Of a DNA stretch of 35,663 bases, positions 1-415 are shown piece after piece. The notes beneath the pieces were generated by a model. It worked only from the letters and a program-made list of their open reading frames with translations. It searched no databases and was not told the origin of the DNA. The position numbers were made by a program, and so were the translations under genes. The stretch's first letter is position 1; each line of letters starts with the position of its first letter. The DNA is from an uncultured Paracoccaceae bacterium (lineage in GTDB: Bacteria; Pseudomonadota; Alphaproteobacteria; Rhodobacterales; Rhodobacteraceae): positions 1 to 35,663 of the forward strand of contig CALKJA010000044.1 in the NCBI GenBank assembly GCA_937995865.1, given 5' to 3'.

Positions 1-86
1 ACCGCTTGCGTCAGAAAATAGAGCCCGATCCCTCGAACGCGCGTTTGCTTGTAACGGAAAGCGGTGGCTATCGGCTTGTTGCCTGA
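1..86 (+). CDS. Response regulator, OmpR/PhoB winged-helix C-terminus, KdpE-like (partial, 5' end outside window)
   Basis: Only the last 27 residues are present, read in the frame that starts at base 3. They begin LRQKIEPDPSNARLL and end with GGYRLVA before a TGA stop. This matches the end of the winged-helix DNA-binding domain of OmpR/PhoB regulators: the LRxKIExDP recognition-helix end, then the TExGxGYRL wing hairpin. KdpE, the potassium-transport regulator, has this wording closely, but other family members are similar. The receiver domain lies outside the window, so the partner kinase and target cannot be judged. The next gene on this strand is more than 400 bases away and is separated by two terminators. 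Confidence 0.7.
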   Translation, partial: RLRQKIEPDPSNARLLVTESGGYRLVA

Positions 87-136
87 AAATTAACGGATCC
101 GGGATATCCTTTGTCCTGTGATCTAAGAATCCCTCG

Positions 137-207
137 GCAGATCGGGGTTATGATCTGCACCTCCCTGTTGGACTTGGCCCGGACCTTTTTAGGTTCGGGT
201 CTTTTTT
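137..207 (+). ncRNA. Small RNA, copy 1, with CCUCCC motif (cuckoo/CcsR-like candidate)
   Basis: Two hairpins flank a single-stranded anti-Shine-Dalgarno-like segment. Hairpin 1 pairs 137-143 (GCAGATC) with 152-158 (GATCTGC) around an 8-base loop. Next comes the 17-base segment CCTCCCTGTTGGACTTG at 160-176. The terminator hairpin (176-201) and six T residues follow. The 17-base segment recurs exactly in copy 2, and hairpin 1 recurs there with a compensatory A-U to C-G pair change, which argues for selection on RNA structure. Rhodobacter CcsR (cuckoo) RNAs carry CCUCCUCCC motifs; membership of that family is inference. The 5' end is uncertain because no clear promoter was found. Confidence 0.6.
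176..207 (+). terminator. Rho-independent terminator of small RNA copy 1
   Basis: A ten-pair stem (GGCCCGGACC with GGTTCGGGTC, including two G-U pairs) closes a six-base loop and is followed directly by six T residues on the + strand. Confidence 0.85.
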
Positions 208-270
208 GCGTCCAACCGATTGTTACCGAAAATCGCACAAATTCCGCCAAAACGATCCATCACCGCCGCT

Positions 271-298
271 TTGTTGCCGGATTCGCAAGCAATATAGG
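271..298 (+). promoter_or_regulatory. Candidate promoter of small RNA copy 2
   Basis: TTGTTG at 271-276 and TATAGG at 293-298 are separated by 16 bases. This predicts a start near 303-306, which coincides with the first paired base of the small RNA's first hairpin. The match is moderate, and the class of sigma factor cannot be decided; known CcsR RNAs use stress sigma factors. Confidence 0.4.
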
Positions 299-302
299 TG
301 TC

Positions 303-415
303 ATCGCAGCAGGATCCTCCCGTCTGAATGCGATAGAAGATCCCGCGCAGACCCGGGCATAGGTCTGCTTCCTCCCTGTTGGACTTGCCCGGGCCGCTTT
401 GGTCCGGGTTTTTTT
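303..415 (+). ncRNA. Small RNA, copy 2, with two CCUCCC motifs (cuckoo/CcsR-like candidate)
   Basis: Three hairpins can be drawn. The first pairs ATCGCA (303-308) with TGCGAT (329-334), with an inner CAG/CTG helix, and shows CCTCCC (316-321) in its loop. The second pairs GCAGACC (347-353) with GGTCTGC (362-368). The third is the terminator. Between the second and third lies the same 17-base segment as in copy 1, again with CCTCCC. Exposed CCUCCC is complementary to the GGAGG of ribosome binding sites, so the RNA could act on mRNAs, on 16S-like targets or as a sponge. Calling it a cuckoo-family RNA is an inference from motif and layout. Confidence 0.6.
388..415 (+). terminator. Rho-independent terminator of small RNA copy 2
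   Basis: An eight-pair stem (CCCGGGCC with GGTCCGGG, one G-U pair) and a five-base loop are followed by seven T residues. This is a textbook intrinsic terminator for + strand transcription. Confidence 0.9.

Follow-up and report, generated by a model that had tools for sequence, protein, structure and literature searches.

Two small RNA genes lie in tandem at the start of the analysed window (the whole stretch of 35,663 nt, which is the beginning of contig C44 in a Rhodobacteraceae genome of 219 contigs that is 87% complete). In our best explanation, to which we assign a probability of roughly 85%, they are a tandem pair of SorX genes sharing one seed and a 5' pseudoknot, with copy 1 processed from an ompR transcript and copy 2 made from its own promoter. 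The covariance search against Rfam and relatives that the preliminary description had proposed did find a family. SorX (RF02784, cut-off 46.6 bits) matched copy 1, in 3'-UTR position, at 130..207 (60.4 bits, E 1.7e-12) and copy 2 at 340..415 (60.3 bits, E 1.9e-12), both on the + strand, like all features of the pair given below. The two duplicated RNAs are where they had been described and built as described. An identical 17-mer (CCTCCCTGTTGGACTTG) is found at 160-176 and 371-387, i.e., at an offset of 211 nt, with hairpin 1 before it and an intrinsic terminator with a T run behind it (176..207 and 387..415; the terminator scan called 176-201 and 387-409). The window holds a single instance of this core-gap-core pattern, and none of 100 shuffled versions of the window has one. 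Hairpin 1, defined by the Rfam match, the predicted fold and pair statistics, spans 137..158 in copy 1 (GCAGATC/GATCTGC, arms 137-143/152-158) and 347..368 in copy 2 (GCAGACC/GGTCTGC, arms 347-353/362-368), and is present in both predicted folds (z -3.73 and -2.58). The compensatory change that had been noticed in it is real, T-A in one copy becoming C-G in the other, and among relatives every position of the hairpin is occupied by several pair types. The 17-mer is the conserved core of both copies by sequence and conservation. It is mostly unpaired in the predicted folds, and the one at 160..176 is a candidate seed.

The assignment to the cuckoo/CcsR family, made at first sight, did not survive. 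The CCTCCC motif and the tandem arrangement would suit such RNAs, but both copies match SorX, and the CcsR signature motif, which we take to be CCUCCUCCC, has 0 matches in the whole window, from which CCTCCTCCC is missing as well. Moreover, the upstream gene is of the OmpR type and not ccaF1 (DUF1127), the parent gene of CcsR in a passage of PMC8625941. We rejected this identity, whose probability is close to nil; judged by sequence, the locus is a tandem SorX pair, a known family. Because a terminator-like hairpin ends both elements, they might also be a pair of terminators for ompR transcription that regulate nothing. We consider this very improbable, since the conservation of the core and of hairpin 1 goes far beyond the needs of a terminator and since SorX is described, in passages of PMC9438474 and PMC5036791, as an experimentally characterised Hfq-binding small RNA of Rhodobacter sphaeroides.

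The absence of a DUF1127 neighbour had also been remarked upon. The upstream gene is indeed not DUF1127, but a telling neighbour had been overlooked, namely the 3' end of an OmpR-type response regulator gene (ompR-1/RSP_0847-like) at 3..86 (+ strand), with 27 codons and a stop (translation RLRQKIEPDPSNARLLVTESGGYRLVA), the remainder of which lies beyond the contig end. This fragment is too short to give a Pfam match; the same C-terminus precedes SorX at two other loci (L084 and L085), and both a Response_reg and a Trans_reg_C domain are present in the whole ompR-type gene of a genome of the same genus (G230). Copy 1 starts 43 nt past the ompR stop, which fits the 3'-UTR mode of origin. The gene order in the window is ompR end, SorX1, SorX2, a glyoxalase-type gene and an exodeoxyribonuclease III gene (1024-1809, TIGR00633), and the order ompR, SorX, exodeoxyribonuclease III gene is found in R. 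sphaeroides (L072) and several relatives. We took genome G051 as R. sphaeroides because its SorX match at 2598225 and the same core at 1632683 agree with the 5' ends of SorX (75 nt; 2,598,224) and SorY (1,632,642) given in a passage of PMC6238624. Passages of four reports (PMC9438474, PMC6238624, PMC8625941, PMC5036791) have SorX of this species arising from the 3' UTR of an ompR-type gene, with RNase E, Hfq and potA involved; the mature RNA of ~75 nt is released by RNase E (PMC6238624) and bound by Hfq (PMC5036791).

Conservation of the core in relatives, on which the preliminary description had staked its reading, is extensive. An exact copy of the core CCUCCCUGUUGGAC (CCTCCCTGTTGGAC) was present in 274 of the 295 genomes of the family, often at two sites. 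SorX matches at E <= 0.001 were obtained in 282 of the 295 (232 above the cut-off), the weak ones including SorY-type loci, and 13 genomes had no match. The genome under study (G000) has the core three times, once in each SorX copy and once on contig C195 (L003, 1534-1550), where it is located before a terminator. The third lies between a LysR gene and purL (names taken from the matching genes of G230), in the same arrangement as SorY in R. sphaeroides (L073), and thus in the SorY position; with the SorX model it reaches 31.7 bits, below the cut-off. This LysR - sRNA - purL context is not that of the two copies in the window. By sequence comparison, then, SorX and SorY have a core in common, and the GUUGGAC half, which could not be placed before, finds its place as part of it. 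The literature passages found do not mention this shared core, which the original SorX/SorY descriptions may show. At three other loci (L043, L064 and L066) the core is followed by a terminator-like stretch, with no ompR or LysR signature in the 1.5 kb upstream, and these could be further members with the shared core.

Tandem SorX genes are not confined to this genome. A scan of the contigs of one genome collection, which may lack records closely similar to the window's genome, recovered 10 stretches with two exact cores 179-239 nt apart. All 10 lie behind an OmpR C-terminus, and in 8 of them both copies are above the SorX cut-off, the exceptions being the second copies of L082 and L087. The hosts, mostly metagenome-assembled, are Gemmobacter, Pseudogemmobacter, Pseudorhodobacter, Tabrizicola, Aestuariivita and Rhodobacter records. 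Gemmobacter tilapiae KCTC 23310 (L089), a cultured species, has both copies above the cut-off, and in another one, Pseudogemmobacter faecipullorum CC-YST710, the second copy is without hairpin 1. Tandems with different spacings occur as well: 2.8 kb in G295, of the same genus as the window (L074), ~640 nt in G190 (L079), 184 nt in G272 (L080) and 140 nt in G148 (L127). Of the three genomes examined from the window's genus, two have two SorX matches above the cut-off and one has a single such match. The second copies of L082 (at 7136) and L087 (at 877) lack hairpin 1 and have the core directly after an AT-rich stretch; perhaps they are very short RNAs starting at the core.

How copy 2 is controlled is a separate matter. 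The candidate promoter noticed before it did not appear in a sigma-70 consensus scan of 1-520, which found no promoter and did not report 271-284; what stands is a promoter-like element, TTGTTGCCGGATTC, at 271..284 (+ strand), identical in three other genomes. In all four, i.e., the window's genome, Tabrizicola sp. RU_1_2 (G022, L078), Rhodobacter sp. WM.3.37 (L090) and G191 (L225), the element occupies the positions 87-100 nt upstream of the core, with G022 and G191 representing two genera other than the window's, and in G191 it sits between ompR and a single SorX. The whole set of 295 genomes has 30 matches to TTGTTGCCGGATTC, in 26 genomes, versus 1 for the backwards control. At least three of the matches are ahead of SorX (G000, G022 and G191), and among the 20 given as loci one (G022) has a core nearby. 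The element is probably the promoter of copy 2, and a reasonable case can be made that this copy is separately controlled. If instead copy 2 were a promoterless, decaying duplicate, made only by read-through of the copy 1 terminator, the lack of a consensus sigma-70 promoter would be explained, as would the second copies of L082 and L087, without hairpin 1 and below the Rfam cut-off. Nevertheless, copy 2 of the window scores as high as copy 1 and retains the core, the hairpin pairing, the pseudoknot and the terminator, while TTGTTGCCGGATTC precedes the core at the distance just given in four genomes and is otherwise scarce, so that we regard mere read-through as quite unlikely. The extra hairpin ascribed to copy 2 does exist as an inverted repeat (ATCGCA/TGCGAT, 303-308/329-334, with CCTCCC at 316-321 in the loop), but it is not formed in the minimum-energy fold of 303-415, and it is a weak candidate for a real hairpin.

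A different control element is frequent in other genomes. Of 110 sampled SorX loci, 34 have an FNR-type box scoring 10 of 10 in front of the RNA, compared with 3 of 2200 shuffled stretches. The best box scores 9 or 10 in 41 loci (positions were listed for 40 of them), 27 times centred 71-74 nt before the core. The strict pattern is found in 30 of the 295 genomes and its backwards control in 0. In three of the tandems (L083, L079 and L127), it is SorX2 that has the box, and SorX1 is directly behind the ompR stop. These three, together with L121-L140, illustrate boxes at a nearly fixed distance before SorX in many genera. Variants such as GTGATCCGGATCAC occupy the place of the box in L027, L025 and L030 and are possibly sites of another Crp/Fnr-family regulator. 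The link between FnrL and SorX is not new, since a passage of PMC4263372 reports binding of FnrL at RSs2461 (= SorX) in R. sphaeroides by ChIP-seq. As for the copies in the window, their best scores are 7 and 6 of 10, and we discarded control by such a box there.

The alignment of SorX loci (A1, with 65 of 84 sequences; the second copies of L082 and L087 and 17 sequences from L102 on were omitted) pointed to a second helix. The bases CCCN just before hairpin 1 are the complement of the NGGG with which its loop begins, and the two strands would form a helix (S1) that, with hairpin 1 as S2, makes a pseudoknot. From the alignment and pair statistics, S1 is predicted at 131..147 in copy 1 (CCCT 131-134 with GGGG 144-147, the fourth pair being U-G; a shifted register with CCTC 132-135 is possible too) and at 342..357 in copy 2 (CCCG 342-345 with CGGG 354-357), both on the + strand. 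Allowing the 5' strand a shift of 0-4 nt, and with hairpin 1 picked regardless of S1, 109 of 110 loci can form four S1 pairs; these loci are the best-scoring SorX matches (30 given and 80 fetched), which lean to the family consensus, weaker matches being left out. Sliding the loop strand by 1, 2, 3 or 4 nt leaves 74, 20, 1 and 0 four-pair loci, respectively. With register freedom, shuffling among loci still gives 98 +/- 2 of 110 (highest 105, with one more loop register allowed), since CCC and GGG are nearly invariant. The telling test for S1 is the fourth pair at fixed register, which is formed in 93 of 109 loci versus 55.5 +/- 4.7 in shuffles that ignore relatedness (highest 74). It is G-C in 60, C-G in 24, U-G in 8 and U-A in 1, and unpaired in 16. 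The one remaining locus, L201, lacks CCC/GGG and carries ACCG/CGGT instead, and SorX2 of L080 has GCCG/CGGC. The state of the fourth pair changes at least seven times along an ompR tree. This tree has 61 rows (52 labelled and 9 without a usable pair label) and is weakly resolved, with 9 of 58 inner branches starred.

A wider set gave a similar picture. It contained 149 candidates, including loci chosen for their tandems or FNR boxes, and one had no stem; of the other 148, four S1 pairs were found in 131, three in 14, two in 2 and one in 1, against 101 +/- 3.7 with four pairs in shuffles (highest 113). Four rows within the 148 are doubtful (L013 at 1859, L222 at 413 and the second copies of L082 and L087, with no hairpin 1). 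It should be noted that this count allowed hairpin loops of 7-10 nt, whereas the register test on 110 loci used loops of 7-9 nt and a simpler score. In the four-pair candidates, L1 is 0-3 nt, L2 was set to 0 and L3 is 4 nt in 123 of 131. In the Rfam match, both S1 strands are marked as unpaired in the structure line; structure lines of this type are not known to show knots, so this is no proof that Rfam lacks one. In R. sphaeroides, the mature 5' end of SorX given in a passage of PMC6238624 is 3 nt before the S1 helix and 33 nt before the core (at 2598257), and the knot would therefore occupy the very beginning of the RNA.

SorX is thus likely to contain a pseudoknot of four pairs that joins its 5' CCCN to the hairpin 1 loop. 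This feature is likely also new, as far as checked: we found no earlier report of it in the literature, where the original SorX/SorY descriptions may still contain a published drawing of the fold. The same CCC and GGG could, alternatively, pair as a hairpin of their own (CCCN-stem-NGGG) that competes with hairpin 1 and acts as a switch. When hairpin 1 is open, the S1 pairs do form a plain 4-bp hairpin, and covariation alone cannot separate the two structures. However, hairpin 1 is longer (5-8 pairs), varies in pair type at every position and should be the stable state, and the loop lengths of the four-pair candidates suit the geometry that we take to be that of a classical H-type pseudoknot. 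A switch thus seems unlikely to us, and we retain the pseudoknot.

Regarding the function of the core, the anti-Shine-Dalgarno role suggested for its C-rich half is plausible, and the core could pair with Shine-Dalgarno regions. We found no literature report of CCUCCC in connection with a small RNA in Rhodobacter. The 9-mer complement ACAGGGAGG has 13 sites in this genome, 3 of which are the sRNA genes themselves, versus 8 for the backwards control, i.e., no clear excess of targets. Across 120 genomes, the pattern AACAGGGAGG-N4-10-ATG has matches in 108, compared with 73 with a shuffled prefix; many of the matches to the unshuffled pattern, among the rows listed, are the sRNA genes on the opposite strand, and we base no claim about targets on the difference. 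We also looked at PotA-like genes. Four of the 79 matches in this genome were tested, and their Watson-Crick runs with the core reach at most 6 nt, or up to 11 with G-U pairs. One of the four tested in R. sphaeroides (L158, G051 C4:1027768-1028691, strand not given) carries an 8-nt complement of the core, ACAGGGAG, near its start, and the published potA target may be another gene. Overall, a check of seed runs in 16 PotA-like loci gave 8 nt in L158, 8 nt in L163 (G295), where a different part of the core pairs, and 7 nt in L156 (G295). Whole-length duplex prediction against PotA-like genes was uninformative, as it ignores internal folding.

Putting these data together, copy 1 would be cut from the ompR 3' UTR, as in R. 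sphaeroides, and a separate promoter would drive copy 2, which lies behind the copy 1 terminator. Together with Hfq, both RNAs would offer an identical seed (CCUCCCUGUUGGAC) to the ribosome-binding regions of mRNAs and so reduce the translation of these, in the way that SorX acts on potA. We adopt this mechanism, in which the core and Hfq bring about translation repression, by analogy with SorX of R. sphaeroides, and we infer in the same conditional way the targets, expression and processing of the copies in the window. The pseudoknot at the mature 5' end probably shields SorX from 5'-end-dependent decay. Duplication would raise the amount of SorX and give its level a second input, with no new seed. 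Extended to the family, the picture would be one of a conserved H-type pseudoknot that caps SorX, fixing and protecting a 5' end generated by ompR processing or by an adjacent promoter. Tandems would split the two modes, copy 1 being tied to ompR and copy 2 free-standing, with an FNR-type box in some genera and another element here, and together with SorY there would be one set of small RNAs with a shared seed. For this broader proposal we put the chances at even.

SorX is an alphaproteobacterial small RNA with a worked-out stress role, and the pseudoknot would offer a concrete, testable reason for its start point and its persistence. The tandem loci are natural material for the study of how an sRNA derived from a 3' UTR may turn into an independent gene, and the identical core suggests that target studies of either SorX or SorY should weigh both.

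Among known systems, the CcsR1-4/cuckoo RNAs resemble the pair in being tandem small RNAs from a 3' UTR with a C-rich, potentially anti-Shine-Dalgarno motif, and differ in the motif itself (presumably CCUCCUCCC) and in their parent gene, ccaF1. SorY of R. sphaeroides (RSs1543) has the same CCTCCCTGTTGGAC core adjoining a terminator, with another 5' hairpin and a locus of its own. The closest relative is SorX of R. sphaeroides (RSs2461). It is a single copy with a core ending in GGAT, while here there are two copies, with cores ending in GGAC, no FNR-type box and a promoter-like element before copy 2. It has in common with both copies the family match, the location on the 3' side of an ompR-1-type gene and the plan of hairpin, core and terminator.
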